A stretch of 64,000 nucleotides of DNA from Thermanaerovibrio velox DSM 12556 (lineage in GTDB: Bacteria; Synergistota; Synergistia; Synergistales; Synergistaceae). Below, piece by piece: positions 2,223 through 19,097 of this stretch (position 1 is its first letter; each line of letters starts with the position of its first letter). The translations under genes and the position numbers were made by a program. The DNA lies in the NCBI RefSeq assembly GCF_000237825.1, contig NZ_CM001377.1:310001-374000 (forward strand), written 5' to 3'. The notes beneath the pieces were generated by a model that ran no database searches, was not told where the DNA came from, and saw only the letters and a program-made list of their open reading frames with translations.

Positions 2223-2683
2223 CCAGACGGACCGACCAGATCGGATTTAGTCAGCGAGTGCGTCTGGAATGGCTTGAGCAGACGGCCAACCTGGTCTTGG
2301 CAGGGAATGCCAAGGCTGCGGTCAACGAAGCCCTGCAGGAGTTGCTGAAGGACAAGGTGTCCGTTGCCGGACAGGCCGAGCGTGGCAATCGTGAGAAGAT
2401 AATCACGATTCTCCTGAAGACGTGGCTGACGGTTCCGAGCGAACTCGAGTCGTTGCGCATCGAAGGACTGGAACTACTCAAACGTGTTCCTCGACGCGAT
2501 CATCTGGCCATCCACTGGGGGATGGTCATGGCGGTCTACCCGTTCTGGTCGAACGTAGCCACCCAGACTGGCCGTCTCCTGAGGCTTCAGGGTTCCGCTG
2601 CGGTGGCTCATGTTCAGCGCCGGGTTCGGGAGCAATACGGCGAGCGGTTTAACAAGGAACCTGAGGGCTGGAAGAAACGTTAG
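2219..2683 (+). CDS. BrxA-like protein, probably C-terminally shortened
   Basis: A 154-residue protein whose start overlaps the pglZ stop (ATGA), the order expected for BREX type 3, where brxA follows pglZ. The segment HLAIHWGMVMAVYPFWSNVA followed by GRLLRLQGS and QRRVREQYGER resembles BrxA/DUF1819-type small helical DNA-binding proteins. Those usually continue for some tens of residues with an RxVLRSFVDW-like tail that is absent here, since the frame stops at 2683 after GWKKR. Neither other forward frame downstream restores a recognisable tail, so the 3' end was probably lost at the island boundary. The assignment comes from context plus remembered family features; another small defence-island protein is possible. 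Confidence 0.5.
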   Translation: MTRRTDQIGFSQRVRLEWLEQTANLVLAGNAKAAVNEALQELLKDKVSVAGQAERGNREKIITILLKTWLTVPSELESLRIEGLELLKRVPRRDHLAIHWGMVMAVYPFWSNVATQTGRLLRLQGSAAVAHVQRRVREQYGERFNKEPEGWKKR

Positions 2684-3224
2684 AAGGGCCGGATACAGGA
2701 TTTCCCGCCAGGAGACATATTGGATCATCCCCGCTGCAGCAGGTCAAAAGGAGGTATGGGGACGGAAAGGGGCGATGAGTTTTTTTAAGGCCTCATCCAT
2801 CCCCTCAAAGGCCATCCAGCCAATTGATCGCCCCCATCGGTGAGCTGCGGTGAGTTGATTTGCTCTTCGGTTTTAACCTTGCGGTCTTGACGAATGGCAT
2901 AAGATGCGATAACGTCAATCGGGTCAAAAATAGCCCGACCAGGGGCTGAGATGTTGTCGTGCCTAGAGGATTGGGTCCGGTTGGGCGGCTGTAAGACCAG
3001 AGACAGGGAAAGGAGGTCCCGGTAGGGTATGGAAGATCCCAGTAGTAGATCCTGCGTGCCCTTATGCAGCAAGTCTTCATGCCAAAACTACATACCCCCC
3101 TCCGGGACACCTGCTTCCGTGGGTTTCAGGGGCTTTGTAGGGGTCAGTTAACCCTTTATGCGCCTTGCCTGAGCCCTGCGGCGCCTTGCTGGCTCCCGGA
3201 TAGGGTAGACAGGAGGTGTTTCCC
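2684..3224. other. 541-bp gap at the boundary between defence remnant and core genome
   Basis: No convincing gene is present. A 95-codon minus-strand frame (2785-3072) reads ISAPGRAIFDPIDVIASYAI in its middle and could be a fragment of a lost gene, but it has no recognised family and no clear ribosome binding site. I see no tRNA, att-like direct repeat or insertion sequence end that would explain the island boundary. The 3' part (about 3100-3210) is the leader of mgtE. It is GC-rich with short complementary segments but does not match the M-box magnesium riboswitch as I know it. Confidence 0.4.
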
Positions 3225-4616
3225 ATGGGAAGGGCGGAGGCCAAGACCCTGGAGAGAATCGACGACATAGCTTCTTTCCTGGATAGGAATCCCAATCAGT
3301 TCTTGACGGTTATAAGAGAGGCCCACCCGGCGGCGGTGGCGGAGTATCTGTCGGAGCTTCCTTTCGAGGAGGCATTGGGGATACTGCGAGGACTTGACGT
3401 GTCCCGTATGGGGGAGATATTCAGCCACCTGGACGAGGACATGCAGCTCCGGGTGTTTCAGTCCTTCAGCCGGGAGGAGAGGGTTAACCTACTCCTTGAG
3501 ATGTCCCCCGATGACCGGGCGGACCTCTTCAAGGCCCTGCCGGAGGAGAGCCAGACGGCCCTTCTGCCCGCCCTGGCGCAGGTGGAGAGGGAGGACATAA
3601 GGCGCCTTGCCTCCTACGAGGAGGGCACCGCTGGGGCGGTCATGACCTCCGACTACGCCACCATATCGCCCGAGATGACCGCTCAGGAGGCGATCGAACA
3701 CCTTCGGGAGATAGCCCCGGACAGCGAGACCATATACTACACCTACGTGGTGGATGACCAGCACCGGCTGCAGGGGTTCGTCTCCCTTAGGGAGCTCATC
3801 CTGGCCCCCAAGGACGCTAAAGTGAAGGACTTCATGAAGAAGGACCCCATATTCGTCCGGGTGGATGACGACCAGGAGGAGGCGGCAAGGAAGATACAGA
3901 AGTACGACCTCATAGCCCTCCCGGTGCTCAACGACGACGACGTCATGGTGGGCATAATAACCCACGACGATGCGTTGGACATAATAACCCAGGAGCAGAC
4001 GGAGGACATAGAGAAGCTCATGGCCATAGGGGGTGCTCACGGGGAGATGCCGTACCTCAAAACCCCAGCTTGGGTACACTTCAAGAACCGGGCCGCCTGG
4101 ATTGTGGCCCTTGCCGCCTTGGGCTTCGTTTCGGGGATGATAATCCATTCCTTCGAGTCCACCTTGATGAGCCTCATGATACTGGCCCTTTACATGCCCA
4201 TGGTGGCGGACACGGGAGGCAACACCGGAAGCCAGGCGGCCACCGTGGTGGTTCGGGCGCTGGCGCTGGGGGAGATAACCTACGAGGACTTTTTCAAGGT
4301 GCTGTTCAAGGAGTTCAAGATATCCTTGATGTTGGCCCTGGTCCTTGGGATCATATCCTGGATCAAGGTCATGTACCTGTCCCAGGGTAGCACGATCCCT
4401 GCGGGCTTCTCCCTCTTCAACATAGCGGTGGCCATAGCCCTGGCGCTGGCCATTCAGGTGGTTAGCGCCACCCTGGTGGGGGCGGTTCTCCCCATGCTGG
4501 TCCATCGGCTAGGACAGGACCCGGCGGTGGTGGCAAGCCCGGCTCTTACCACCATAGTGGACATAACGGGGCTTATAATATACTTCAGCACCGCCAAAAT
4601 AATCCTGGGATTGTGA
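3225..4616 (+). CDS. mgtE: Magnesium transporter MgtE
   Basis: A 463-residue inner-membrane Mg2+ channel with the full MgtE architecture. An N-terminal superhelical domain (about 20-130, with the SRMGEIFSHLDEDMQLRVF and MSPDDRADLF repeats) is followed by two CBS domains (about 135-255) and a five-helix membrane domain (about 285-463) with the pore motif PMVADTGGNTGSQAATV. The cytosolic domains sense Mg2+ and gate the pore. The ATG at 3225 is preferred because AGGAGGT at 3211-3217 sits 7 bases upstream; an in-frame GTG at 3216 lies inside that Shine-Dalgarno. ATA and AGG codons are common, so this is the first gene of core-genome character. It stands alone and ends at a strong terminator. Confidence 0.96.
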   Translation: MGRAEAKTLERIDDIASFLDRNPNQFLTVIREAHPAAVAEYLSELPFEEALGILRGLDVSRMGEIFSHLDEDMQLRVFQSFSREERVNLLLEMSPDDRADLFKALPEESQTALLPALAQVEREDIRRLASYEEGTAGAVMTSDYATISPEMTAQEAIEHLREIAPDSETIYYTYVVDDQHRLQGFVSLRELILAPKDAKVKDFMKKDPIFVRVDDDQEEAARKIQKYDLIALPVLNDDDVMVGIITHDDALDIITQEQTEDIEKLMAIGGAHGEMPYLKTPAWVHFKNRAAWIVALAALGFVSGMIIHSFESTLMSLMILALYMPMVADTGGNTGSQAATVVVRALALGEITYEDFFKVLFKEFKISLMLALVLGIISWIKVMYLSQGSTIPAGFSLFNIAVAIALALAIQVVSATLVGAVLPMLVHRLGQDPAVVASPALTTIVDITGLIIYFSTAKIILGL

Positions 4617-4642
4617 TGACCGGCCTGGAGATTTCATCTAGG

Positions 4643-4669
4643 AGGGGCCCCCAAGGGGCCCCTTTGACC
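4643..4669 (+). terminator. Terminator after mgtE
   Basis: A perfect 9-bp stem (AGGGGCCCC at 4643-4651 and its complement at 4655-4663) with a 3-base loop is followed by a short T run. It separates mgtE from the antiterminator gene. Confidence 0.75.
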
Positions 4670-4791
4670 TTTCAATGTAGGGGATATACCATTAACTTGG
4701 GCTGAGATATCCCCAGCCCCTGCCCTAACGGTGGTTTTTGACTTCCATGGACCTTAAAGTTCCGAAACCATGTCCCTTGGGTGGTGGTCAA

Positions 4792-5637
4792 GTGCTCAAG
4801 ATCCAGAAGGTGCTCAACAACAACGTGGTGATAGCCCTGCACCGTTCGGGGTACGAGGCGGTGCTGGTAGGTCGCGGATTGGGGTTTGGCAAGCATCCAG
4901 GGGACGGGGTGGAGGAGGACTCGGCAGAGAAGGTCTTCGTCCTTAAGGACCCAAGGGAACGCATAAGGTATGCCCGGGTTCTGGAGGAGGTGGATAAACC
5001 CTTCGCCGCCCTGGTGACCCAGGGCATAGCCATGATGGAGGACCTGCTTGGAACCACCCTGGGGGAGAGGATCCACTGGAGCTTGACGGACCACCTTTTC
5101 TTCGCGGTGAAGCGCCTCAAGGAGGGCATAGCGGTTAAGAACCCTTTCCTAAGGGAAGTGGAGGTGCTGTATCCAAAGGAGTACGCCGCCGCCCAGGCCA
5201 TGATCCGCTGGCTCTCCGAGGAGATAGACCTTCCCATGCCGGAGGACGAGACCGCCTTTGTGGCGTTGCACGTGCACAGCGCCATGGGGGGAGAGAGCCT
5301 AAGCCAGGTGTCCCGGAAGAACAACATAATATCCCAGATGATAAAGATCACCGAAGAATCCCTTGGCTTCACCCTAAATCGCAAATCCCCCCAGTACATG
5401 AGACTCATAAGGCACTTAAGCTTCTTCATAGACCGTATAGAGGGCTCCATGGAGGGAGACCCCATGGATTCGGTGGAGGAGATGATGCGAAAGGAACACC
5501 CCATCCCCTACGGCATAGCGGCTAAGCTGTGCCTCTTCCTTCAGAACGCCCTGGGCAAACCCGTTCCCAGGGCGGAGACCGTATACTTGACCATCCACAT
5601 TCAAAGGCTATATAATTCCACAAAACATAGCGAATAG
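4792..5637 (+). CDS. BglG/LicT/GlcT-family transcriptional antiterminator
   Basis: A 281-residue RNA-binding antiterminator. Residues 1-55 form the CAT RNA-binding domain (LKIQKVLNNNVVIA and GRGLGFGKHPGD), followed by two PTS regulation domains (about 65-170 and 175-281) carrying the histidines that PTS proteins phosphorylate (for example near VALHVHSAMGG and LTIHIQRLY). Dimers bind a RAT RNA hairpin and prevent terminator formation. The GTG at 4792 is chosen because the CAT domain must begin at LKIQKVLNNN; the 18 upstream codons add nothing family-like. A matching RAT/terminator pair lies 23 bases downstream, in front of the PTS gene, so this is the local antiterminator. GlcT versus LicT subtype cannot be fixed, although the EIICBA partner favours GlcT. 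Confidence 0.9.
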   Translation: MLKIQKVLNNNVVIALHRSGYEAVLVGRGLGFGKHPGDGVEEDSAEKVFVLKDPRERIRYARVLEEVDKPFAALVTQGIAMMEDLLGTTLGERIHWSLTDHLFFAVKRLKEGIAVKNPFLREVEVLYPKEYAAAQAMIRWLSEEIDLPMPEDETAFVALHVHSAMGGESLSQVSRKNNIISQMIKITEESLGFTLNRKSPQYMRLIRHLSFFIDRIEGSMEGDPMDSVEEMMRKEHPIPYGIAAKLCLFLQNALGKPVPRAETVYLTIHIQRLYNSTKHSE

Positions 5638-5659
5638 TCACACGTTACCAGTTCCGTTA

Positions 5660-5691
5660 TCGCGTGTTACCGGCTTTTCGGGCATGAGCGA
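5660..5691 (+). promoter_or_regulatory. RAT antiterminator RNA hairpin
   Basis: The RNA folds as TCGC/GCGA outer stem, TG/CA middle pair, TTA versus G asymmetric internal loop, then a CCG/CGG stem capped by GCTTTT. This matches the conserved features of the ribonucleic antiterminator bound by LicT/GlcT proteins (TG-TTA-C...G-G-CA). Its 3' half (5679-5691) is exactly the 5' arm of the downstream terminator, so the two structures are mutually exclusive. Confidence 0.82.
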
Positions 5692-5733
5692 GGCGGTGCC
5701 GAATAAGGCGCTGTTTCGCTCATGCCCGTTTTT
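5679..5733 (+). terminator. Conditional terminator in the PTS leader
   Basis: A perfect 13-bp inverted repeat (CGGGCATGAGCGA at 5679-5691 and its complement at 5716-5728) is followed by TTTTT at 5729-5733. It ends 25 bases before the PTS gene start and competes with the RAT hairpin, so transcription into the PTS gene should depend on the active antiterminator. Confidence 0.88.
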
Positions 5734-5758
5734 ATATCCTTATTTGGGGGGATGTGAA

Positions 5759-7741
5759 GTGTTAAAGGGATCGTTTGGTAAGCTTCAGCGGATAGGTCAG
5801 GCACTGATGTTGCCGGTGGCCATCCTTCCCGCCGCGGGGTTCCTCCTGGCGGTTGGGTTCAGCCTCAAGAGCCCCACGGTGCTGGAGATGGCACCGTTCC
5901 TGGCGGGGCCGGGGTGGAGCAAGCTTGCCACCATGATGGCCTCCGCGGGAGGAGTGGTGTTCGATAACCTGGCGCTGCTCTTTGCGGTGGGCGTGGCGGT
6001 GGGTTTGGCGGGACTCTCTGGGGTTGCCGCCCTGGCTTCGATCGTGTGCTATCTGGTTATGAACGCCACCATGAGCGCCGTGGGGGGCTTCACGGTGGAG
6101 ATGGTTCTCAAGGGGGGCAACCCATCTTACGCCCTGGTGATGGGCATACCGACCCTGCAGACCGGCGTTTTTGGCGGCATCCTGTGCGGCCTCGTGGGTG
6201 CCTGGTGCTACGAGAGGTTCTACAAGATAGAGCTGCCCCAGTTCCTGGGCTTCTTCGCGGGCAAGAGGTTCGTCCCCATAGCCAGCGCCTTTGCGGGTTT
6301 CCTCCTGGGAGTGGCCATGTTCTTCCTGTGGCCCTTCGCCCAGAAGGGGCTTAACAGCTTCTCCAACGCCATAATGGGCTCCGCCATGCCGGTGGCGGTG
6401 TTCCTCTTCGGCATGATCAAGCGGCTTCTCATACCCTTTGGGCTCCACCACATCTTCTACGCCCCCTTCTGGTTCGAGTTCGGGGAGTACAAGAACCTGG
6501 CGGGGGAGATAATCCGGGGGGACATAAGGATATTCTTCGCCCAGCTTAAGGACGGTGTGCCCCTTACGGCAGGCTTCTTCCTGGGGGGTGAGTTCCCCAT
6601 AATGATGTTCGGCCTTCCCGCTGCGGCGCTGGCCATGTACCACAACGCCAAGCCGGAGAACAAGAAGATGGTGGCGGGGCTGCTGGCCTCCGCGGCTTTG
6701 ACCTCCTTCCTCACCGGCATAACCGAGCCCATAGAGTTCGCCTTCCTCTTCGCCTCCCCGCTGCTCTACTTCATCCACGCGGCGCTTGACGGGCTCTCCT
6801 TCCTCTTGCTCTACATATTCAAGGTACACCTGGGCTACACCTTCTCCGGCGGTGCCATAGACTTCGTGCTCTTCGGCATCGTGCCCGGCAAGGAGAAGTG
6901 GTGGCTCGCGGTGCTTCTGGGGCTTGGCTTCGCCGTGGCCTATTACGTGATCTTCACGTTCTTCATCCGTTTCTTCGACCTCAAGACCCCCGGCAGGGAA
7001 GATGTCTCCCTGGACTCCAACAACGGTTCGTCCTCCAAGGCCCCCACGGAGCTTGCCGCCAAGGTCCTGGAGGCCCTGGGAGGAGCGGGGAACCTGGAGA
7101 GGCTGGACGCCTGCATAACCAGGCTCAGGATATCCGTCAAGGATCCCAAGGTGGTGGACAAGGAGGCCCTGAAGGCCCTTGGGGCCACCGGGGTTATGCA
7201 GGTGGACCGCAACTTCCAGGCCATCTTCGGCACCGCCTCGGAGGCCATCAAGGAGGAGATACTGCACATAGCGGGCCGCAGCGAGGGTCGTAGGGTCAAG
7301 GTGGCCTCCCCCATGTCCGGCAAGGTGGTGGACCTGTCGGAGGTGCCGGACAAGACCTTCAGCGAGAGGATGGTGGGTGAGGGCTTTGCGGTGATCCCCA
7401 CCGACGGACTGGTGGTCTCCCCGGTGGACGGCAAGGTAACCCTGGTGTTCCCCACCATGCACGCCGTGGGCATAACCTCCAACGAGGGCCTGGAGGTGCT
7501 GGTTCACGTGGGCATAGACACGGTGAAGCTCAACGGTGAGGGTTTTAAGGCCCTGGTCTCCCAGGGGGATGAGGTTAAGAAGGGACAGCCCATACTGGAG
7601 GCGGACCTCAAGGTCATATCCGCCAAGGCGCCGTCCATAGTCACCCCGGTGGTCTTCACCAACCTCAAGGGAGCTGGTATGGTCACCCCCTTCAAGGGAG
7701 AGGTCAAGGCCGGGGAGGATGGGGCCAACGTGGTCCTTTAA
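5759..7741 (+). CDS. ptsG: PTS glucose/N-acetylglucosamine-family transporter EIICBA
   Basis: A 660-residue fused PTS permease. The membrane EIIC domain (about 1-400) has GITEPIEFAFLFASPLLY, typical of the glucose family. It is followed by EIIB (about 425-505), with the phosphocysteine in LDACITRLRISV, and by EIIA (about 520-645), with its histidines in MHAVGI and VLVHVGIDTV. It imports and phosphorylates a hexose using phosphate from HPr. The GTG at 5759 follows GGGGGGATG and gives the canonical N-terminus LKGSFGKLQRIGQALMLPVA; an in-frame TG-type start at 5684 would lie inside the terminator hairpin. Glucose versus GlcNAc specificity is not certain; the EIIC sequence looks closer to glucose. 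Expression is predicted to be controlled by the RAT switch. Confidence 0.92.
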   Translation: MLKGSFGKLQRIGQALMLPVAILPAAGFLLAVGFSLKSPTVLEMAPFLAGPGWSKLATMMASAGGVVFDNLALLFAVGVAVGLAGLSGVAALASIVCYLVMNATMSAVGGFTVEMVLKGGNPSYALVMGIPTLQTGVFGGILCGLVGAWCYERFYKIELPQFLGFFAGKRFVPIASAFAGFLLGVAMFFLWPFAQKGLNSFSNAIMGSAMPVAVFLFGMIKRLLIPFGLHHIFYAPFWFEFGEYKNLAGEIIRGDIRIFFAQLKDGVPLTAGFFLGGEFPIMMFGLPAAALAMYHNAKPENKKMVAGLLASAALTSFLTGITEPIEFAFLFASPLLYFIHAALDGLSFLLLYIFKVHLGYTFSGGAIDFVLFGIVPGKEKWWLAVLLGLGFAVAYYVIFTFFIRFFDLKTPGREDVSLDSNNGSSSKAPTELAAKVLEALGGAGNLERLDACITRLRISVKDPKVVDKEALKALGATGVMQVDRNFQAIFGTASEAIKEEILHIAGRSEGRRVKVASPMSGKVVDLSEVPDKTFSERMVGEGFAVIPTDGLVVSPVDGKVTLVFPTMHAVGITSNEGLEVLVHVGIDTVKLNGEGFKALVSQGDEVKKGQPILEADLKVISAKAPSIVTPVVFTNLKGAGMVTPFKGEVKAGEDGANVVL

Positions 7742-7827: not shown

Positions 7828-9246
7828 TTAAAGGGGGCTTATGACACCCTTGGCCATGAGGTAGACCGCGGTCACCGCGGCGGCGCAAAGTCCAAGGAGC
7901 AGCGCCGTCTCCACGGCGCCGAAGGCCTTGGCGTTGTTCTCCCTCTTGGCCTTCCAGTAGAAGACGGCACCGGGGGCGTAGAGGATGGCGCACATGAGAA
8001 GATATTCAAGGCCCGCAGCGTAGATTAGCCACAGGGCGTAGACCGAGGCCACAAGGCTTATGAGGAGCTCGAAGCTTTTGGACTCATCCTGGCTGTACCC
8101 CTCGCCGGTGGAGGAGAGCTTGAGCTGGTACAGGGCGCTGAAGAGGTAGGGCACCAGTATGGCGGCGCTGGCTATGGTGTAAAGCGCCTGGTAGGTGCTC
8201 TCGGACACCAGGGTTATGAGAAGGAAGAGCTGGATGAGCCCGTTGGTGATCCAAAGGGAGTTCACCGGGGCCTTGTTCTCGTTCTCCTTGGCGAAGAAGG
8301 AGGGAAGCACCTTGTCCTTGGCGGCCACGTAGGGGATCTCCGCCGCCAGCATGGTCCAGCCCAGGGTGGCCCCGGAGAGGGATATGATGAGCCCAAGGTT
8401 GATTATGGTGGCGCCCCAGCTGCCCACCATCCTCTCCAGGATGTAGGCGGTGGTGGGGTTTTGCAGCTTGATGAGCTCCTCCCGAGGCATGACGCCCAGC
8501 GATGCCAGGGAGATCACCACGTACAGGGCCAGGGTGCCAAGGAGCCCTATCACCGTGGCCTTGCCCACGTCGGACTTCTTCTCCGCCCTTCCGGAGAGCA
8601 CCACCGCCCCCTCCACGCCGATGAAGACCCACAGGGTTACCATCATGGTGCTGCGAACCTGCTCAAGCACCTTGCCCCAGTCCAGGGCGCCGCCGGTACC
8701 CCAGAAGTCGGCGTTGAAGATGTCCGCCTTGAAGCCCAAGACCGCCATCAGAGCGAAGAGGATTATGGGCACCAGCTTGCCCACGGTGGTTATGAGGTTC
8801 ACTATGGCGGCGTCCCTAACGCCCCGGAGCACCAGGAAGTGGATGCCCCAGAGGATCACCGAGGCCCCCGCCACCGCCATGGTCTTGTTGCCGAAGGCGG
8901 GGATGAAGTAGGCGATGGCCTCGAAGAGCAGCACCAGGAACGCCACGTTGCCAAGCCAGGCGCTGAGCCAGTATCCCCAGGCGGAGTTGAAGCCGATGAA
9001 GTCCCCGAAGCCCGCCTTGGCGTAGCTGTAGATACCGCCGTCCAGCTCGGGCTTGCGGTTGGCCAGGCTCTGGTAGGTAAGTGCCAGGGCTATCATCCCT
9101 ATGCCGGTTATGAGCCATCCCAGTGCTATGGCCCCGGGTCCGGCGTTTCGCGCTATGTCGGAGGGCAGGGAGAAGACCCCTGCCCCTATCATGGAGCCTA
9201 TGACCAGGGCCACCAGGGAGAACAGGCCCAACTTCTTATCTGACAT
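7828..9246 (-). CDS. arcD: Arginine/ornithine antiporter, APC family (copy 1, downstream of arcA)
   Basis: A 472-residue inner-membrane protein of the basic amino acid/polyamine antiporter branch of the APC superfamily, with about 12-13 hydrophobic segments. The signature [20 protein letters not shown] begins near residue 10, and [23 protein letters not shown] is also typical. It probably exchanges external arginine for internal ornithine (or citrulline), feeding the deiminase encoded directly upstream on the same strand. The ATG at 9246 lies 7 bases behind an AAAGGTG Shine-Dalgarno; a GTG three codons earlier overlaps it. The gap to arcA is 102 bases with only a weak GC-rich hairpin, so the two are probably cotranscribed. 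Lysine/cadaverine-type exchange cannot be excluded from sequence alone, but the arcA linkage makes arginine likely. Confidence 0.87.
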   Translation of the reverse strand: MSDKKLGLFSLVALVIGSMIGAGVFSLPSDIARNAGPGAIALGWLITGIGMIALALTYQSLANRKPELDGGIYSYAKAGFGDFIGFNSAWGYWLSAWLGNVAFLVLLFEAIAYFIPAFGNKTMAVAGASVILWGIHFLVLRGVRDAAIVNLITTVGKLVPIILFALMAVLGFKADIFNADFWGTGGALDWGKVLEQVRSTMMVTLWVFIGVEGAVVLSGRAEKKSDVGKATVIGLLGTLALYVVISLASLGVMPREELIKLQNPTTAYILERMVGSWGATIINLGLIISLSGATLGWTMLAAEIPYVAAKDKVLPSFFAKENENKAPVNSLWITNGLIQLFLLITLVSESTYQALYTIASAAILVPYLFSALYQLKLSSTGEGYSQDESKSFELLISLVASVYALWLIYAAGLEYLLMCAILYAPGAVFYWKAKRENNAKAFGAVETALLLGLCAAAVTAVYLMAKGVISPL

Positions 9247-9348
9247 TTGTATCACCTTTCCCTTATGTAGGTTTATTCGTTTAGATTTTTATTTCACAAA
9301 GCCAGGGGAGCCCCAAGGGCCCCCCGCGGTTGAAGGCAGTGCCTTTGC

Positions 9349-10581
9349 TTATATGTCCTCCCTGACCAGGGGCATGCTCATGCACCTGGGGCCGCCGCGG
9401 CCCCTGGAGAGCTCGGAGCTGGGGACGATGTGGGTCACGATGCCGTGGTCCTGGAGGATCTGGTTGGTGACGTAGTTCCTGGAGTAGACCACCACCTTGC
9501 CGGGGGCGATGGCCAGGGTGTTGGACCCGTCGTTCCACTGCTCCCGGGGGGCGTCGATGGGATCGCCGCCGGCGCAGCGGATCAGGGTGACCTTGTCAAG
9601 CCCCAAGGCCTTGGCAAGGATGGTCTCCAGGGTGGAGCGCTCCTCCTCTATGTGAATGCCGCTGCTGTTGGGGGTGATGGAGAACACCTGCAGCGGGCCC
9701 TCGATTTCGGGATGGATGGTGAACTTGTCCCGGTCCACCATGGTGAACACGGTGTCCAGGTGCATGAACGCCCTCTTCTTAGGTATGTTGAAGGCAAGCA
9801 CCTGCTTGTAGGTGCTGCGCTCATCGCTGAAGAGCTTCCTCGCCAGCTTCTCCACGGAAGCGGCGTCGGTCCTCTCGGATATGCCTATGGCGAGGACGGA
9901 GGGACTTAATACCAGCTCGTCGCCGCCCTCGATGGAAGTGGTCTCGGTCCTGTCGTACCAGAAGGGGACGTCGCAGTCCTTGAAACGGGGGTGGTGCTGG
10001 AAGATGTACTTGGCGTAAAGGGTCTCCCGGTTGCGGGTCTCGGTGCGCATGTGGTTCAAGGTGATGCCGGTGCCGATGGTGGCGAAGGGATCCCTGGTGA
10101 AGTAGAGGTTGGGCATGGGATCCACCACCAGGGGATTGTCGGTGTCCAACCTGTCAGCCAGGGACAAAAACTTGAGCTCCTCCCTGGGGAGCTCGGTTCG
10201 TCGCACCCCCGCCATGGTCTGGGCCACCATGGCCTTCACATCCATGGAGAGGAAGAACTCCCGAAGCATCTCCCGGGTGCCGTCTCCAGGGATCTTGGCT
10301 TCCTTGAGGTACTCGTCGATGAAGGACTCCCTTACCGCCTTGTCCTCCAACGCCTCCGCCGCCAGGTCCTCCAGGTACAGCACCTCCGCGCCGTTGTCCT
10401 TGAGCACTTTGGCGAAGGCGTCGTGCTCCTCCTGGGCTATCTTGAGGTAGGGGATGTCGTCGAAGAGCAGACGGGCCATGAGGTCCGGGGTGAGGTTCTC
10501 AACCTCCTTGCCTGGACGGTGCAGAAGCACCGAACGAAGGCGCCCTATTTCCGATGTTACCTTGAGGGGTGAGGGCTTCAA
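9349..10581 (-). CDS. arcA: Arginine deiminase
   Basis: A 410-residue cytoplasmic enzyme that hydrolyses arginine to citrulline and ammonia, the first step of the arginine deiminase pathway. Family landmarks are all visible: [15 protein letters not shown] near the N-terminus, [13 protein letters not shown] mid-protein, the histidine in [12 protein letters not shown], and the catalytic cysteine in [10 protein letters not shown] close to the C-terminus. The start is TTG at 10581, behind AAGGAGGA with a 6-base spacer. It heads an arcA-arcD unit. The genes for ornithine carbamoyltransferase and carbamate kinase, needed to gain ATP from citrulline, are not in this window, so they must lie elsewhere or citrulline must be exported. 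Confidence 0.95.
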
Positions 10582-10651
10582 TTTTATTCCTCCTTACTTA
10601 AAATTATCGGGTCTTTACAAGGTTTTTCACCCTTAAAAGCCCACGACCATT

Positions 10652-10679
10652 ACCTTACCAAATAAACCGCTATTGTCAA
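10652..10679 (-). promoter_or_regulatory. Candidate promoter of arcA
   Basis: On the minus strand a perfect -35 TTGACA (10679-10674) is followed by a 16-base spacer and TAAGGT (10657-10652). It lies about 70 bases upstream of the arcA start. The -10 is a poor match, so this is tentative. Confidence 0.5.
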
Positions 10680-10818
10680 TCGGTTCATGATAGTGGTTGC
10701 AATGATTCTAAAATTGATTTAGATATAGGTCGCTGGTGTTTGTAGGGGGTGGTTTGCCTCGTGGATCCCCATCCCCTGTTGGGGGTTGATTGGTCGATAG
10801 CCCATAGGATGATAAAAA

Positions 10819-10837
10819 TCAAGGGCCCAAAGGGCCC
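10819..10837 (-). terminator. Terminator after antiporter copy 2
   Basis: A perfect GGGCCC/GGGCCC stem (10823-10828 and 10832-10837) with an AAA/TTT loop is followed on the minus strand by TTGATTTTT. Confidence 0.65.
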
Positions 10838-10896
10838 CTGGAAGCTTACGCTGTTTTAGCGATTAGTGATTATGGTTTAGCAGAGATCCCCGGCTG

Positions 10897-12315
10897 TTAG
10901 AGGGGTTTGATGATGCCGAGGGCCATAAGCACGATGGCCGCTATGGCGGCGATGCACAGGGCGGTGAGCACCACGATCTCAAATGTGCCGAAGGCCTTCT
11001 CGTTATTCTCCCTCTTGGCCTGCCAGTAGAAGATGGCCCCTGGGGCGTAGAGGATGGCGCACATGAGCAGGTACTGCAGCCCCGCCCCGTAGAGGAGCCA
11101 AAGGGAGTATATGGATGCTATGGTCCCTATGGTGAAGTCGAAGGCGGTGGACTCCCTTCTCCCGTACCCCTCGCCGGTGCTGGCGATCTTGAGGAGGTAC
11201 AGGGCACTGAAGATGTAGGGCACCAGTATGGCGGCGCTCGCCACGGTGTAGAGGGCCTGGTAGGTGCTTTCGGATACCAGGGTTATTATGAGGAAGAGCT
11301 GCACGAGTCCATTCGTTATCCAAAGGGAGCTTGCGGGGGCTCCGTTGTCGTTCTCGAGGGAGAAGAAGTAGGGGAACACCTCGTCCTCGGAGGCAACGTA
11401 AGGTATCTCCGCCGCCAATAGGGTCCAGCCCAAGCTTGCCCCTGCCAGGGACACTATGAGCCCCAGGTTTATGATGACTGCACCACCGCTTCCTATGAGC
11501 CTTTCGAGGATGTATGCGGTGCTGGGGTTCTTAAGCTGTATCAGCTCCTCCCGGGGCATTATCCCCAAGGATGCAAGGGATATGATTACGTACAGGACCA
11601 GGGTGCCGAGCAACCCTATAACCGTGGCCTTACCAACGTCGGTCTTCTTAGCCGCCCGTCCTGAGAGCACCACCGCACCCTCCACGCCGATGAAGACCCA
11701 CAGGGTTACCATCATGGTGCTGCGCACCTGCTCAAACACAGGTCCGAACTGGAAAGGACCACCGGTTCCCCAGAAGTCTGTCTTGAAAAGGTCCAAATTG
11801 AAGCCCAAAAGGGCTATGAAGGCGAAGAAGATTATGGGCACCAGCTTACCAACGGTGGTGATAAGGTTAACGATGGCGGCCTCCCTTACGCCGCTTAAGA
11901 CCAGGAAGTGGATGGCCCACAGCACCACCGAGGCTCCGATGACCGCTGCCACCCGGCTCTCGAATAGGGGCACGAAGTAGGACACCGCGTCGAATAGCAG
12001 GATTAGGTAGGCCACGGTGCCGAGCCAAGCGCTGAGCCAATAGCCCCATGCGGAGTTGAAACCTATGAAGTCCCCGAACCCCGCCTTGGCGTAGCTGTAT
12101 ATACCACCGTCCAGCTCGGGCTTTCGGTTCGCCAGGCTCTGGTAAGTGAGCGCCAGGGCTATCATCCCTATGCCGGTTATGAGCCAACCAAGGGTGATTG
12201 CACCGGCGCTGGCGTTCTGAGCTATGTCGGAGGGCAGGGAGAACGCCCCCGCCCCTATCATGGACCCTATGACCAGGGCCACAAGGGGGAAAAGGCCCAA
12301 CTTCTTCTTAGACAT
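10897..12315 (-). CDS. Arginine/ornithine-type antiporter, APC family (copy 2)
   Basis: A second 472-residue paralogue of the antiporter at 7828, identical in length and highly similar throughout ([63 protein letters not shown]). The ATG at 12315 is chosen because all three copies share an AGGTG-type Shine-Dalgarno followed about 7 bases later by ATG. It stands as its own transcription unit between two gaps and ends at the terminator near 10823. Differences concentrate in loops (for example [11 protein letters not shown] in place of GALDWGKVLEQ), so specificity could differ. Retention of three intact copies points to divergence or dosage. Exact substrates are not shown by the sequence. Confidence 0.85.
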
Positions 12316-12892
12316 TGCTACCACCTTTCTTTTTCGGACCAGCGCGTGTTGTGAGGTTCTAAGCCCTATGGTTAGAGGCTGATTGACCCTACTTAACTAT
12401 ATACCATTAACCGGCGTAAATGGCCACCAACCAAACGTATCATTAGCCCCTCGGGAGGCGTTAACTTCTCTGTGACGGCTAAGGCCCTCGCCTCCACTCC
12501 TGCGGGACATGTGGTTTTTTTGTTGACATGGTGGTAACACCGCCTTTTCATAGGGCGATCACCCAAAAACTAAAAAACTGCACGGGGACGTAGAAGCCCT
12601 CCCCGCACCGCCGCTCCAAGACAAACCCAAATCCCCACGCATCTCGGTCAATGTAATAGTCGCCGTAACACATGAGGATTTAGATTTGCACTATTATTTT
12701 TTATTATACTGAACAAGCGCCATTAGGTCTACATGTATTACCACGTTTGCTCTTTTTCGCTGCCCTGTCTTAAGGGCTTGGGGCCGGTGGTTTTGGGGGA
12801 GGGTTGGATGTTTTGGATTGGAGGCGGTTGTCCCCCGGGAACCTTGGGGTCTTGAAGGGGTTCCCGGGGGTTGTGCCCTATGGGCTTGGGTT
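12316..12892. other. 577-bp gap between antiporter copies 2 and 3
   Basis: Much longer than needed for a promoter. It holds a perfect 12-bp inverted repeat at 12832-12843 and 12859-12870 (CCCCCGGGAACC and complement) just after copy 3; with no T run it may be an RNA-stabilising hairpin. A TATAAT-containing AT-rich stretch lies near 12697-12712 (minus-strand sense), and a possible 41-codon minus-strand frame at 12548-12673 is listed separately. The rest is unassigned. Confidence 0.5.
12548..12673 (-). CDS. Possible 41-residue small protein or leader peptide
   Basis: An ATG-initiated minus-strand frame upstream of antiporter copy 2. Its product starts MCYGDYYIDRDAWGFGFVLE, is rich in aromatic residues, and includes three arginines encoded by CGA/CGG, codons unlike the AGG habit of the genome. 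There is no good Shine-Dalgarno. The AT-rich segment just upstream contains TATAAT and could be a promoter. It could be an arginine-sensing leader peptide, a remnant of a lost gene, or chance. I do not recognise it. Confidence 0.22.
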   Translation of the reverse strand: MCYGDYYIDRDAWGFGFVLERRCGEGFYVPVQFFSFWVIAL

Positions 12893-14311
12893 TTATAGCG
12901 GTTTTATTATCCCCTTGGCCATGAGGTATATGGCTATGATTGCGGCGGTGCATAGGAACAGGAAGAAGGTGATCTCGGTGGGGCGGAAGGGCTTCTCCCC
13001 CACCTCCCTTTTGGCCTGCCAGTAGAAGATGGCCCCTGGGGCGTAGAGGATGGCGCACATGAGCAGGTACTGCAGCCCCGCCGCGTAGAGAAGCCACAGG
13101 GAGTACAAGGAGGCCACTAGGCTTATGATGAAGTCGAAGGCGGTGGACTCCCGTCTTCCGTAGGTCTCCCCGGAGGTGGCGAGCTTTAGCAGATAGAGGG
13201 CGCTGAACAGGTACGGGACCAGTATCGCCGCGGTGGCTATGGTGTACAGCGCCTGATAGGTGCTTTCAGATACAAGGGTTATAAGAAGGAAGATCTGTAT
13301 GAGCCCGTTGGTGATCCAAAGGGAGCTCACCGGGGAGCCGTTGCTGTTCTCCCAGGAGAAGAAGTAGGGGAACACCTCGTCCTCCGCCGCCACATAGGGT
13401 ATCTCCGCTGCAAGCAGGGTCCAGCCCAGCGTGGCCCCGGACAGGGATATGATGAGCCCCATGTTTATGAGCGCCGCGCCCCCCGCCCCGACCAGCCTCT
13501 CCAGGATGTAGGCGGTGGTGGGGTTCTTGAGTTGTATCAGCTCCTCCCGGGGCATGACCCCAAGGGATACCAGGGATATGAGTATGTAAAGCCCCAGGGT
13601 GCAAAGAAGGCCTATCACCGTGGCCTTCCCAACGTCCGTCTTCTTTGCCGCCCGGCCGGATAGGACCACCGCGCCCTCCACGCCGATGAAGACCCAAAGG
13701 GTCACCATCATGGTGCTGCGCACCTGCTCAAGCACCGATCCGAACTGGAAGGGGCCCCCGGTCCCCCAGAAGTCCGCTTTGAAGAGGTCCGAATTGAAGC
13801 CTATGAAAGCCATGGCGGTGAAGAAGATTATGGGAACCAGCTTGCCAACGGTGGTTATCAGGTTAACTATGGCGGCCTCCCGGATGCCGCTCAGGACCAA
13901 CAGGTGGATGGACCAAAGCACCACCGATGCCCCCGCCACCGCTATGGCCCGGTTCTCGAACACCGGGAAGAAGTAGGCCACCGCCTCGAATAGCAACACC
14001 AGGTACGCCACGTTCCCAAGCCAAGAGCTTATCCAGTAACCCCAGGCGGAGTTGAAACCTATGAAGTCCCCGAAGCCAGCCTTGGCGTAGCTGTAGATGC
14101 CGCCGTCCAGCTCGGGCTTCCGGTTGGACAGGCTGTGGTAAGTGAGGGCCAGGGCTATCATGCCTATGCCGGTTATGAGCCATCCTATTAATATGGCCCC
14201 AGGACCTGCGTTACGGGCTATGTCGGAGGGCAGGGAGAAGACCCCCGCCCCTATCATGGACCCTATGACCAGGGCCACCAGGGATAAAAGACCCAGTTTC
14301 TTCTTGGACAT
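12893..14311 (-). CDS. Arginine/ornithine-type antiporter, APC family (copy 3)
   Basis: The third 472-residue paralogue, with the same APC topology and motifs as the other two ([40 protein letters not shown]). The ATG at 14311 is preferred over the ATG two codons earlier, because it puts the GGTGG Shine-Dalgarno at the same distance as in its siblings. It resembles copy 2 more than copy 1 in loops such as GPFQFGSVLEQ and [28 protein letters not shown], which suggests two successive duplications. A consensus-like promoter lies just upstream and overlaps the 3' end of the neighbouring exporter gene. Substrate specificity is inferred only from the family and the nearby arcA. Confidence 0.85.
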   Translation of the reverse strand: MSKKKLGLLSLVALVIGSMIGAGVFSLPSDIARNAGPGAILIGWLITGIGMIALALTYHSLSNRKPELDGGIYSYAKAGFGDFIGFNSAWGYWISSWLGNVAYLVLLFEAVAYFFPVFENRAIAVAGASVVLWSIHLLVLSGIREAAIVNLITTVGKLVPIIFFTAMAFIGFNSDLFKADFWGTGGPFQFGSVLEQVRSTMMVTLWVFIGVEGAVVLSGRAAKKTDVGKATVIGLLCTLGLYILISLVSLGVMPREELIQLKNPTTAYILERLVGAGGAALINMGLIISLSGATLGWTLLAAEIPYVAAEDEVFPYFFSWENSNGSPVSSLWITNGLIQIFLLITLVSESTYQALYTIATAAILVPYLFSALYLLKLATSGETYGRRESTAFDFIISLVASLYSLWLLYAAGLQYLLMCAILYAPGAIFYWQAKREVGEKPFRPTEITFFLFLCTAAIIAIYLMAKGIIKPL

Positions 14312-14482
14312 TCCCATCCACCGTCCCTTGGTGAGTTTTATGCGACCGCGGGGCCTGTGGCCTCCACGCCTCCTTTGTATTGAAGCGCGAAACGACCAAC
14401 GTTTTTGTGTTTTTAGCCCATTGCACTGCCAGGATGAACGCGAGTCAACTTTCACCCGTTCTGGATACCATCGTGTCGATTT

Positions 14483-14511
14483 ATGTTAGCATGCTACTTA
14501 TCTTGGGTCAA
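14483..14511 (-). promoter_or_regulatory. Promoter of antiporter copy 3
   Basis: On the minus strand TTGACC (14511-14506), a 17-base spacer and TAACAT (14488-14483) form a good sigma-70-type promoter about 170 bases upstream of the antiporter start. The -35 box lies inside the last codons of the exporter gene. Confidence 0.6.
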
Positions 14512-16749
14512 TGATGAGATGCTTCCAATCTGGCTATCCAGGCAGATCGTGCGGTGGAACAGGTGCTGCAGCTCCTTCTTGTGGGAGCACATGATCACCG
14601 TGGGAGTGTTGGGTAGTCCCATGAGGTTTGAGAGCACCCTCTTCTCCGTGGCATCATCCAGGGAAGCGGTGGCCTCGTCCAGGATTACTATGTCCGGTAA
14701 ATCGTATATGCAGCGGGCGATCATGAGCCGCTGGGTCTCACCGCGGCTTAAGGTCACCCCCTTAGGCCCTATGGGGGTCCTAAGGCCTTCGGGAAGGGAA
14801 ACCACGAGGTCCGAAAGCCCTGCTATCTCAAGGGCCCATAGGACTCTTTCCTCCGAGGCCTCCTTCCCAAGGGATACATTCCATCCCAGGGAGCCCCACA
14901 AGGGCCTTGATTCCTGCAGGACCCATCCCACCCGCTTCCTGAAGGCCCTTAGGGTTCGTCCCGTCAGCTCCAGGCCACCCAAAAGGACCTGGCCTTCCGT
15001 GGGCATCAGGAGTCCCGCCGCAAGCTTGAGCAGCGTTGACTTGCCGCAGCCACTCGGGCCGGTGACGAGAAGCCATTCCCCCGGCTCGATCCTTAGGCTC
15101 AGCCCCCTTATGACATCCCTGCGGTGGTACCTGAACCGCACGTCCTGAAAGACCAGCGGTCCCTTGGGCAGGGTGCTTTCGCCGTCCTCTTCCTCCTCGG
15201 CGTTGGAGATATTGGACAATCGTCTTGCCCCAGAGGATGCCTCCCCCGCCTCCAAGAGGGATCCCAGGGCGGTTTCAAGGGGTACCGACAGCTGCCCCGC
15301 CGCGAACTGAACCGCCATCAGCCTGCCGATGGACATGTCCCCCGAGGCGGCCGCCGCGGCGGTGAGATACGACGCCAGAAGGTACTGCCCCTCCCTTATC
15401 ACGGAAGATCCGAACCTCATAAGGACCCAGGCGGCGTGTCTCTTGACCGACCACGATGAAGCCTCCTTGTCCGCTGCCTCCCACCTGGAGAGGAGCGCGC
15501 TCCCAACCCTTGGGTGTCTTGAGTCCCAAATGGACAGCCCGGTCTCCGAGGCCTGTTCTCGGTACCTTATGAATGCCTCCTGGGCAATGCGGTCCGATTC
15601 TTCCGTGAAGCTCCTCATCCGCCAGCTCCAGATCACCGTTATCGCGGAGCCCGCCGTGAAGGCCAGGCTCGATGGGGCCGACAGGACCCAAACCGCCCCC
15701 AGAATCCCCAGGAAACCAAGGATCCCCAGGAGGGCCGATGGGATGGATCTGCCGATGACCCGCCCCAGCCGAGCGGAGTCCTCCATCAGCTGCATCAGGT
15801 CCCCGGGGGAGAAGCTCCACGGGGGAACCCCACGGGGCGTGCCGCGGGTGACCTTGCGGGCCAAAAGGAGGTCTAGGGCGGACCTCTTGGCCTCCTCTAT
15901 CCGCTTGGACGCCAGGTCCTTCGCGGCGTTGAACGTGTGGCGTCCAGCCATCAGTGCCCCCTGGGCCAGGAGCAGGAGGGCCGCCGTTGGGATGCCGTCA
16001 TGCCCCTTTTTGAGGCTCAACCTCATGTCCAGCAGTGCCTTTGATATGATCGGGTAGCACCACTGGAGGGCCAGTAAGATCGCCCCCGCGGCGCCCAGGA
16101 CCGCCCACGCCCCCGGGGGACCGCTGGGACCTAGGACCTTCTGCGGTCCATTTGCGTGCTTAGCGTGCTCCGGGTGGAGGAGACCTCTCATGGACCCCGC
16201 AAGCCATGAGGTGAGGTTCTCCCCGGTGGGGCGGCTTGGCTCGCAGCAGCCTTGGATCCCCACCGAAAGGGCATAGCCCGCTCCCCCAGGCTGGGCCGCT
16301 TCGCTTGGACCGTCCGGCTCATGGAAGCGGAACCGGAACTGCTGATATGTCATCAGGGTCCTTCCCTCTGCCGGATCCGACAGGATGAACCATGCTTCAT
16401 CTCCAACGTGCGCCACCTCCCATAGAACCGCGAAGTGGCATCCGTCAAGGCGCACCACCGCCGGGGTCTTGACCTGGTCCCCCAGGGAGTCCGCAGGGCA
16501 CCTGTACAGCCCGCATGCAATGCCCGCGTCCTCCAGGACGTCCCAGATGTCACCCATGGACTTAAGCCCCTTGGGGACCTTGGGCTTCATCTCCTCCAGC
16601 CCCGCGGCCTCAAGGAGCATGGCGGCGCACGCGTCCCCGCACCCGTCCCGTCCTACCTGGAGCTCCAGGGGGAAACTCTTGAGCTTCCTCTTTATGCGCA
16701 GGAGGGCCAGGATGTTCCAGGGCGTATTAGAAAATTTAAATCCCCTCAT
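14494..16749 (-). CDS. C39 peptidase-containing ABC exporter (RiPP leader cleavage and export)
   Basis: A 751-residue peptidase-containing ABC transporter. The C39 domain (about 28-140) has catalytic Cys37 in QVGRDGCGDAC, His105 in LDGCHFAVLW and Asp125 in LSDPAEGR. A membrane domain follows (about 215-500). The ATPase domain has Walker A GPSGCGKST (564-572), signature LSRGE (668-672), Walker B IVILDEATASLD (687 on) and the switch histidine in MCSHKKE (723). Such proteins cut leader peptides after a double glycine and export the core across the inner membrane. The ATG at 16749 overlaps the radical SAM gene's end, implying translational coupling. The membrane part is divergent and rather alanine/glycine-rich. 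The signature has R in place of the usual second G. Its likely cargo is the precursor encoded at 18370-18537. Confidence 0.88.
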   Translation of the reverse strand: MRGFKFSNTPWNILALLRIKRKLKSFPLELQVGRDGCGDACAAMLLEAAGLEEMKPKVPKGLKSMGDIWDVLEDAGIACGLYRCPADSLGDQVKTPAVVRLDGCHFAVLWEVAHVGDEAWFILSDPAEGRTLMTYQQFRFRFHEPDGPSEAAQPGGAGYALSVGIQGCCEPSRPTGENLTSWLAGSMRGLLHPEHAKHANGPQKVLGPSGPPGAWAVLGAAGAILLALQWCYPIISKALLDMRLSLKKGHDGIPTAALLLLAQGALMAGRHTFNAAKDLASKRIEEAKRSALDLLLARKVTRGTPRGVPPWSFSPGDLMQLMEDSARLGRVIGRSIPSALLGILGFLGILGAVWVLSAPSSLAFTAGSAITVIWSWRMRSFTEESDRIAQEAFIRYREQASETGLSIWDSRHPRVGSALLSRWEAADKEASSWSVKRHAAWVLMRFGSSVIREGQYLLASYLTAAAAASGDMSIGRLMAVQFAAGQLSVPLETALGSLLEAGEASSGARRLSNISNAEEEEDGESTLPKGPLVFQDVRFRYHRRDVIRGLSLRIEPGEWLLVTGPSGCGKSTLLKLAAGLLMPTEGQVLLGGLELTGRTLRAFRKRVGWVLQESRPLWGSLGWNVSLGKEASEERVLWALEIAGLSDLVVSLPEGLRTPIGPKGVTLSRGETQRLMIARCIYDLPDIVILDEATASLDDATEKRVLSNLMGLPNTPTVIMCSHKKELQHLFHRTICLDSQIGSISSLTQDK

Positions 16750-18373
16750 CCTCCGCGGCCCTCTCGATGGAGTCAACGGTGAGCACCCCCACGTTGACGC
16801 TGGGGTCTTTGGCGAGCTCCTCTATCCTCCTTGCAACCCCCGGAAGCTCTATGGACAGGGCGAGGAAGCACCTCATCCGGAAGGCGGTCTCGGCCCTTAT
16901 GGCCCGGCACTCCGCCGGGGAGGGGTTGATGAAATCCCAGCGCTCTTCGGAGCCCGTGATCCTCGATGCGGCGCACACCGGGCAGAGCCTAACCGCCCAG
17001 CAGGAGGAGCAGTGACGGGTGACCGTTTCCCCGTAGGATAGGTATAGGTTTGCCAGGGCCATCCTGTCTATGCCCCCTTCCACGTGTCCTATGGAGGGAA
17101 CCTCCGCCTTGTGGCAGATGGAAAGGTTGCCGTCCGGGAGCACCATCAGGTTGTCCACCCCCATGGGGCAGGTGAGGGTTAGCTTTAGGGGGTCGTAAGG
17201 AAGCGGCCTTTGAAAGGACATCCTGGCAAATGGATAAAGCGGCGCCGCCTTGGGGCTTGCGGGGAAGGACCGGTCGTCTTTCGCCGTTTCCAGCATCTCT
17301 TCGATCATCCGCTCCCCCTGAAGGCGTACCCTTTCGATCACCCCCTGGGGGTCCCGCACGAAGACCCCTTCCCGCCTTTCCGGGAAGTGCACGCTTCTAA
17401 GGGCCCCTAGGGACTCGGTGAAGGAGCGGCATCTTTGGACGTCGTGCCGGTCCGTGAGAACCCCGAAAATCGATACCCGCCGGGAGAAGTATCTGGGGTA
17501 CAGCTCCTTTATCCTCATCAGGTTCCGGAATGCGGTGTCAAAGGTGCCGGTTTGGTCCTCGAGGACCCGGCAGAGGTCGTGCTGGTCCTTGGGGCCGTCC
17601 AGGCTTGCGAAAAGGGTGATGTCGTGCCGTACCAGGAAGTCGATCATGTCATCGGTCATGATTGACAGGTTGGTGTTCATGGAGAACCGCAGGGATTCCC
17701 TTGGGATGCCCAGCTCCCCCCAGGGAAGGTTTAGGAATGCCTCGGCGGAAAGCCTTACGGTTTGGAAGTTCAAAAGCGGTTCCCCGCCGTACCAGGAGAG
17801 CCCCGGGGGGCATACCCTGAGCGCCCAGGCCCTTGCCCTTTGCGAGAGCTTTAGGAACACCCGAGAGTACATGCCGAAGTAGAGCTCCAGTCCCTTTCGG
17901 GCGGTGTGGATGTCCATGTGGCGCAGCGGCCCCGGGGAGGTCATGTGGGTTCCCCGGCAGTAGGTGCACCGGAAGTTGCAGCGGTCCGTGACCTTGAGGC
18001 AGAACTTGCGGATCAGCACTTGGGATGTGTAGCGGTCCACCAGGGCCGCCGCCTCCGCAAGGGAAGAGGGGCCTATACTGGGGAGCGGCCCTTTGGGCAG
18101 GAACCCCCGGTCCACTAGATCCCTCAAGCTGCGGCCTGCTTGGTCCTTGGGGGTTTTAGAGGGATCCTGGAGGAAGCTGCGTGCCGATTCCAGCTCCTCC
18201 TTGGACATGAGCACCCCCATGTGGGAAGCGCCGTCGTAGACCAGCCGGATTCCCCTGTGATTTATCGCTATCCCCATTGGGTGATGGGGCGACAGTTTTT
18301 CGAAGCCTTCAAAGCCCTCAAGGGGAGGCGGGGGAGCTGCCCCCTCCTCCCCTGCGCCGTGGAGGTGGGTCAT
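16736..18373 (-). CDS. Radical SAM/SPASM peptide maturase
   Basis: A 545-residue enzyme. An N-terminal part (about 25-110) resembles the precursor-recognition region of peptide maturases (KLSPHHPMGIAINHRGIRL). The radical SAM core has the cluster motif C132-x3-C136-x2-C139 in KVTDRCNFRCTYC and a GGEP-type SAM site in LSWYGGEPLLNF. The C-terminal SPASM domain has cysteines in LTCPMGVDN, LSICHKAEV and HCSSCWAVRLCPVC for auxiliary clusters. It should install thioether or other radical crosslinks in the cysteine-rich precursor encoded immediately upstream. The ATG at 18373 shares four bases with the precursor stop (ATGA), which fixes the start; longer in-frame extensions would run through the precursor gene. 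Nearest class by memory: Cys-rich-peptide/ranthipeptide or sactipeptide maturases. The exact chemistry is unknown. Confidence 0.88.
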   Translation of the reverse strand: MTHLHGAGEEGAAPPPPLEGFEGFEKLSPHHPMGIAINHRGIRLVYDGASHMGVLMSKEELESARSFLQDPSKTPKDQAGRSLRDLVDRGFLPKGPLPSIGPSSLAEAAALVDRYTSQVLIRKFCLKVTDRCNFRCTYCRGTHMTSPGPLRHMDIHTARKGLELYFGMYSRVFLKLSQRARAWALRVCPPGLSWYGGEPLLNFQTVRLSAEAFLNLPWGELGIPRESLRFSMNTNLSIMTDDMIDFLVRHDITLFASLDGPKDQHDLCRVLEDQTGTFDTAFRNLMRIKELYPRYFSRRVSIFGVLTDRHDVQRCRSFTESLGALRSVHFPERREGVFVRDPQGVIERVRLQGERMIEEMLETAKDDRSFPASPKAAPLYPFARMSFQRPLPYDPLKLTLTCPMGVDNLMVLPDGNLSICHKAEVPSIGHVEGGIDRMALANLYLSYGETVTRHCSSCWAVRLCPVCAASRITGSEERWDFINPSPAECRAIRAETAFRMRCFLALSIELPGVARRIEELAKDPSVNVGVLTVDSIERAAEDEGI

Positions 18374-18537
18374 GACGCGAAGGTGCTCAGCATGTTGCTG
18401 TCCCTGGTGGAGGTCATGGTGTCGTCGGTTACGGAGTCCATGGAGCAGGTGCATTCGCACTCGCAGTCGCAGGTCTTGCCTCCGGTTATGCGGTCTCCCT
18501 CATCCCGGCCCAGCTCGGTTATCCTCCTCAAAGGCAT
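18370..18537 (-). CDS. RiPP precursor peptide with double-glycine leader and CxCxCxCxC core
   Basis: A 55-residue peptide. Residues 1-20 form a charged leader ending in RITGG, a typical C39 peptidase site. The predicted 35-residue core begins KTCDCECECTCS: five cysteines, each separated by one residue. It continues as an acidic, Thr/Ser/Asp/Asn-rich tail that reads TMTSTRDSN before MLSTFAS. The ATG at 18537 has AAAGGGGG about 9 bases upstream, and the stop overlaps the maturase start by ATGA. The neighbouring maturase and C39 exporter supply what a radical-SAM RiPP needs. The cysteine spacing and hydroxyl/acidic acceptors suggest a nested thioether peptide of the sactipeptide/ranthipeptide kind. 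Activity (antimicrobial, signalling or metal binding) cannot be predicted. Confidence 0.85.
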   Translation of the reverse strand: MPLRRITELGRDEGDRITGGKTCDCECECTCSMDSVTDDTMTSTRDSNMLSTFAS

Positions 18538-19097
18538 CTTAAAACGCCCCCTTTCGGGAAGTTTATTAATATTATCCGCCCCCGGGAAGGCTAAGTAAAG
18601 AGCGCTCAACCCCTTGGGCGAAGGCCCCGCGTGGTGCGCCCCCCGGTGGGCCTTTGGGTGCCCCTTGGGCGGCCCAGCTTGCCCTTCGGGGAAGAAGGTG
18701 TTTTCCCCGGGGAGTATGGCGCTCACCGCTGGAGGTGTTGTACCGCGGTCCCTGGGCTTCCCCCATGGGCCCCCGTGGTTCCCGCCCTCGGCGGACGCCG
18801 GGCGCTAAAGGGTCTGCCCATGAGTCCCTTGGAGGGGTGGAGAGGATTTGGTGCTCTGGGCCTTCCATGGGGACTGCGGCCTTAGGGGCCTTGGGGTTAA
18901 CTTTAATCTTAGAGTGCATTATATCACTTGACCTGCGTCATCTCCCTGTGGTAATTCGATGAACAAGAGGTGCAGTTTTTGTAATATTTTATAAAAAATA
19001 GAAGAGGTGGTCTTTGGCCCCAGGGGATCCTGGTTTTGAGAATCTTTGCATCGTCGGTTGAAAATCCCGTGTTTGCGTTGAAGGGGGAGTGATTCGT
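18538..19097. other. 560-bp divergent intergenic region between the RiPP cluster and TRAP operon 1
   Basis: The part nearest the precursor (18570-18900) is very GC-rich, with several short complementary segments rich in CCCC/GGGG. Frames on both strands there are proline/glycine-rich and unconvincing. The AT-rich part (18900-19010) holds the extended -10 promoter toward the RiPP genes. Facing the TRAP genes it has a weaker candidate: TTGACC near 18928, 18 bases, then TAATTC. The long GC-rich leader may be a regulatory RNA. Confidence 0.45.
18918..18926 (-). promoter_or_regulatory. Extended -10 promoter of the RiPP cluster
   Basis: On the minus strand TG-A-TATAAT is a perfect extended -10 element. 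No good -35 lies upstream. It is the only strong promoter signal facing the precursor gene and implies an untranslated leader of roughly 375 bases. Confidence 0.55.

Follow-up and report, generated by a model that had tools for sequence, protein, structure and literature searches.

A rare radical SAM peptide cassette in Thermanaerovibrio velox with a near-constant, cysteine-rich core

A minus-strand operon on the chromosome of Thermanaerovibrio velox DSM 12556 joins the gene of a 55-aa precursor to those of a 545-aa radical SAM/SPASM enzyme and a C39-peptidase ABC exporter, and the question it raises is what kind of peptide such a cassette makes and whether it belongs with any of the known RiPP families. 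Within the window, the whole stretch of 64,000 nucleotides that was analysed, all three genes lie on the minus strand where a preliminary description had put them: the precursor at 18370..18537 (stop codon counted in), the maturase at 16736..18373 and the exporter at 14494..16776 (760 aa counted from a TTG start). Ahead of them, on the same strand, 18571..18599 matches a sigma-70-like promoter (TTTACT-17-GATAAT), and the stretch 18538-18599 is 92% identical to that of a second Thermanaerovibrio (G002), against 68% for the intergenic DNA further upstream. The maturase starts in an ATGA overlap with the precursor end, and the exporter frame shares 41 nt with the end of the maturase. The preliminary description had drawn attention to this overlap and to the nested starts, which are indeed found in T. 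velox, but the ATGA overlap is restricted to Thermanaerovibrio and is not a general trait, other loci having a hairpin-bearing gap between precursor and maturase. Homologous clusters lacking the precursor frame, which had been named as grounds for doubt, were looked for, and the frame is present in 8/8 loci, each from a different genome. From its sequence the T. velox RiPP cassette is real and intact, and we consider it likely that it represents a new and rare three-gene family, with thioether chemistry, a hairpin topology and a cleavage site as proposed below.

The precursor (18537-18370) reads MPLRRITELGRDEGDRITGG as leader followed by KTCDCECECTCSMDSVTDDTMTSTRDSNMLSTFAS as core. The leader, residues 1-20 (18478..18537, minus strand), ends in a Gly-Gly at residues 19-20 that is invariant in seven aligned precursors, whilst its identity to the leaders of other Synergistota families is 25-40%. 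Three residues on from the Gly-Gly begins CDCECECTC, so that the predicted core, residues 21-55 (18373..18477, minus strand), opens with the CxCxCxCxC block C23-C31 (18445..18471, minus strand), whose cysteines are the proposed thioether donors; the double-glycine leader and the five alternating cysteines at the core start had both been read from the letters alone. Across the six frames of the window this motif is seen a single time, against 0/200 residue shuffles of the translated frames, and four of its five cysteines are invariant across the seven aligned precursors. Towards the C-terminus lies an invariant tail, D38-A54 (DDTMTSTRDSNMLSTFA; 18376..18426, minus strand), which is proposed as an acceptor strand. 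That the precursor fits no named family still stands after profile searches, which found no NCBIfam family for four precursors (E 1 or E 0.01) and no Pfam family, and the core sequence strings had no match in the literature searched.

The exporter carries a C39 peptidase domain (16324..16674, minus strand; Pfam 27.8 bits, gathering score 22) with Q40, C46, H114 and D134, all invariant in six homologous exporters, which bears out the intact Cys/His/Asp triad reported earlier. TTG would be the likelier start of this gene, as the internal ATG at residue 10 is not kept in the sister species. The homologous exporters score 103-110 bits for C39 and 72-76 bits for the membrane domain, the latter giving 16.7 bits in T. 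velox, under the Pfam gathering score of 28. The T. velox protein (14494-16776) is thus much more diverged than its homologues and has an extended N-terminus, yet the catalytic and ATPase residues are retained. With a Gly-Gly ahead of the core and, in the same operon, a C39-ABC exporter that has its Q/C/H/D residues, the C39 domain would be expected to cut after the Gly-Gly, and a 35-residue product would then be exported.

In the maturase both the radical SAM motif (CX3CX2C, C132-C139; 17957..17980, minus strand) and the set of SPASM cysteines (C402 to C489, as CX12GX4C, CX2CX5CX2C and C; 16907..17170, minus strand) are complete, and this SPASM radical SAM gene adjoins that of a Cys-containing precursor, as is looked for in sactipeptide genes. 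The last SPASM pair is CX2C instead of the usual CX3C across the family, and also in a CcpM-like enzyme of the IMG/VR contig L090. The five readable maturases form one clade with full support on a long branch, although the tree program warns of long branches nearby. An AlphaFold2 model of the enzyme (mean pLDDT 83.7) opens with three strands and then helices, at about residues 34-88 (18110..18274, minus strand), an order that may mark an RRE; its top match in the PDB is CteB (E 1e-15), and the sequence search agrees. The best profiles for the maturase are CcpM, QhpD, RumMC and others including PapB and SCIFF, all far under cut-off (CcpM gives 152.8 bits on the T. velox enzyme, cut-off 500). 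The Cys-rich sactipeptide/ranthipeptide group had been offered as the closest relative, and at the level of the maturase this proves true, the nearest profiles including established thioether-forming enzymes, albeit below cut-off. The family, which is absent from NCBIfam and Pfam, is most probably thioether-forming, and its links may go to C-alpha, as defines sactipeptides, or to C-beta or C-gamma, as in ranthipeptides.

Metal-binding CxC repeats are likewise built of alternating cysteines. With its acidic spacers (CDCECECTC, CDCSCDCTC) the cysteine block looks like such repeats, and AlphaFold2 predicts the unmodified precursor to be disordered, with no hairpin and no structure (pLDDT 50), as would suit cysteines that stay free and bind metal in a metallothionein- or metallophore-like manner while the radical SAM enzyme acts on different residues (by epimerisation, for example) or on only a few of the cysteines. 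It would seem very unlikely that this is the case, given that thioether-forming enzymes are among the nearest profiles and that the nearest structure, CteB, is itself a thioether-forming maturase; furthermore, the most conserved part of the peptide is the cysteine-free tail and not the Cys block alone.

Amongst the known thioether families CcpM/CLI_3235 (TIGR04068; SacP23 of Paenibacillus polymyxa) gives the highest-scoring NCBIfam profile with all the maturases tested (152.5-174.5 bits), and this system also has a Cys-rich core behind a short leader. Membership was rejected, the 152.5-174.5 bits of four maturases comparing with a cut-off of 500 and the precursor going unrecognised by the peptide profiles. 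The partners of SacP23 in its cluster are a subtilase, a separate ABC transporter and proteins of TIGR04066 and TIGR04069 (PMC10731318), whereas the cassette described here has the C39-ABC exporter alone. Because the maturase falls short of the cut-off and the described cluster has different partners (PMC10731318), the cassette is, by these measures, not CLI_3235-type. Ruminococcin C (RumMC) provides the second or third best maturase profile, and membership was likewise rejected (NF035951; 109-136 bits, cut-off 720); its CxC donors lie in nested hairpins, with links Cys22-Asn35 and Cys24-Glu31 (PMC8172795), and its cysteines form two separate pairs, whereas the cassette peptide has five alternating in one block. 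CteB, to which the maturase comes closest among solved structures in both sequence and fold, belongs to the SCIFF/thermocellin (CteA-CteB) system, where six cysteines are spread across 45 residues in place of the five alternating ones; here too the scores (TIGR03974; 69-109 bits, cut-off 425) led to rejection. SCIFFs are widespread, which has been argued to count against an antimicrobial role (PMC8326336). PapB/freyrasin resembles the cassette in a core rich in Cys and Asp, but the freyrasin donors are spread in repeats and not gathered in one block, and membership was rejected at 84-89 bits (NF047865; cut-off 340). Finally, the GG_samocin maturases (TIGR04148; 98-113 bits) suggest by name and profile Gly-Gly peptides modified by radical SAM enzymes, but the cut-off of 300 is not reached and no profile recognises the precursor.

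Other arrangements of radical SAM genes and small frames were seen on further contigs. On L090 (IMG/VR contig 3300038679_000359) two CcpM-like radical SAM genes lie on opposite strands (1717-3706 and 4012-6392), each adjoining a protein of 162-171 aa that ends in KTGF[DN][IV]xxLSNA, and the plus-strand enzyme has the CX2CX5CX2C SPASM variant, as in the cassette family. L091 (IMG/VR contig 3300033149_003115, classed as viral) has at 4499-4816 a 105-aa frame made nearly all of CxxC repeats, immediately preceding a PapB-like radical SAM enzyme (4833-6113; 280.6 bits, cut-off 340). In a Spirochaetaceae MAG (L035, 7372-9414) seven Cys-rich small frames that share the leader KPQSxETxENxxVYxCE, or one close to it, are found downstream of a radical SAM gene.

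How the cysteines might be linked can be considered from the core itself. In nearly all known sactipeptides the donors are N-terminal and are joined to acceptors nearer the C-terminus, so as to form a hairpin (PMC8326336); ruminococcin C sets a precedent for doing this from a CxC pair (PMC8172795). T, D and N are acceptor types known from ranthipeptides (PMC8326336). In the T. velox precursor the donor cysteines (C23-C31) lie in the N-terminal part of the core (residues 21-55), and T, D or N stands at residues 38, 40, 42, 44, 46 and 48; this period-2 run was spotted post hoc, is equalled by 1.8% of tail shuffles and is just three long in the tail of a Chlorobiaceae precursor. It may be speculated that T40, T42, T44, D46 and N48 serve as acceptors, although the AlphaFold2 prediction for the unmodified precursor contains no hairpin. 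The fullest form of the proposal, in which five alternate-position donors would be joined to these residues rung by rung as a fully laddered beta-hairpin, a new class of thioether peptide held near-constant in three Synergistota families as a signal or fixed-function molecule, we regard as unlikely to be right in all its parts; five adjacent rungs would be unusual, as sactipeptides generally have one to four links (PMC8326336). The thioethers might instead join neighbouring residues and form un-nested rings, as in streptosactin (PMC8172795); freyrasin has six Cys-Asp links (PMC8326336). Within the Cys block, however, no acceptor lies at least three residues off without crossing other donors, and it is the tail that is conserved, so that separate rings of this kind are improbable.

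A further element of the locus is a GC-rich RNA hairpin 3' of the precursor stop, present in 6/6 loci examined. In T. velox it occupies 18321..18353 (minus strand), within the first maturase codons, and five other loci have a strong hairpin at the equivalent position; it is intergenic in four loci and overlaps the start of the maturase in both Thermanaerovibrio copies, where the modelled enzyme has a low-confidence extension. Folding energy is better than that of shuffles in five loci (z -2.1 to -4.6) and weakly so in T. velox (z -1.6, 11/200 shuffles equal). Three base pairs are changed on both sides between the two Thermanaerovibrio hairpins and none in slid versions, although a shuffle control of the covariation gave 73/500 and with two sequences only the comparison is not decisive. 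A search of Rfam found no known RNA. The hairpin may keep expression of the precursor higher than that of the enzymes.

Precursor and maturase are adjacent in 7/188 Synergistota genomes, T. velox and six others from four genera and three families in all, and in one Chlorobiaceae MAG, which has all three genes of the cassette. The precursor profile gave seven true matches and the maturase profile found 5/188 Synergistota genomes, missing two because the gene is broken by Ns or by a contig end; the exporter comes next in line at every locus whose contig extends far enough. Weak Synergistota precursor matches (L104-L106) were read as chance, and the small Cys-rich frames next to the distant maturases of L005-L037 included no similar precursor. 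Searches with the precursor gave no relative in IMG/VR, phages, plasmids or a sample of 326 genomes from L035's phylum. No close maturase was found in 391 genomes from the class of L005, in 345 from L025's phylum, or in the remaining genomes of the phylum (393) and the order (97) to which the Chlorobiaceae MAG belongs. As samples of other groups yielded nothing further, the family is rare within what was searched, these wider searches being genome samples, most without a positive control, by which absence is not proved.

Gene neighbourhoods vary from locus to locus. The arginine deiminase and TRAP regions of T. acidaminovorans have aligned ends lying about 295 bp apart, with no cassette between them, whereas at the same site T. 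velox has about 8.4 kb carrying two antiporter genes and the cassette. Within the window (7828-14455) three arginine-ornithine antiporter paralogues flank arginine deiminase, two of them without a counterpart at the T. acidaminovorans site.

Such a scattered distribution, together with the absence at the T. acidaminovorans site, would suit an accessory weapon, and the same cassette can be read as making a bacteriocin of the sactibiotic type, with the exporter doubling as self-protection. A Gly-Gly leader with a C39-ABC exporter is a common bacteriocin architecture, and antimicrobial activity is known for ruminococcin C and thuricin CD (PMC8172795). No recurrent separate immunity gene was seen beside the cassette, however, and in three families the leader and enzymes change around a near-static core, although bacteriocin cores usually diversify; we therefore think this role rather unlikely.

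The extent of this conservation can be seen by comparing T. velox with the other Synergistota families, in which core identity is 74-86%, rising to 94-100% over 16 residues of the tail, and DDTMTSTRDSNMLST is the same in every core. Identity to other lineages is only 36-41% for the maturase and 25-27% for the exporter, the values for the other Synergistota families alone being 37-41% and about 27%. Between the window and G058, 16 of 37 core codons have synonymous and 5 non-synonymous changes, and as the codon changes between families are largely synonymous it is the peptide itself that is kept. DNA identity between the two Thermanaerovibrio species is 99% for the core, 78-86% for the maturase, 70% for the exporter and 68% for the upstream intergenic region, and even the Chlorobiaceae precursor retains the GG, four alternating cysteines and MLxxFA. 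Since the product part is near-unchanged beside enzymes that are now about 40% identical, the exact structure of the peptide probably matters. Conservation favours a product of fixed structure, perhaps a signal, over a diversifying bacteriocin, albeit not decisively, and a role as a conserved signal, or as another peptide of fixed function that is not an antibiotic, is as yet speculative.

A survey of anaerobes in 2014 listed no RiPP cluster for Synergistota (PMC4289311), and the cassette adds a rare, probably thioether-forming RiPP family for this phylum. The system is small, its host is a cultured thermophile, and its diverged maturases would act on almost the same substrate; a ladder of five adjacent donors, if true, would put to a demanding test how a SPASM enzyme selects its donors and acceptors and in what order it links them. 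A near-frozen core set against a drifting leader and drifting enzymes is not what typical bacteriocins show, and it makes the family a good test case for non-antibiotic roles of radical SAM peptides.
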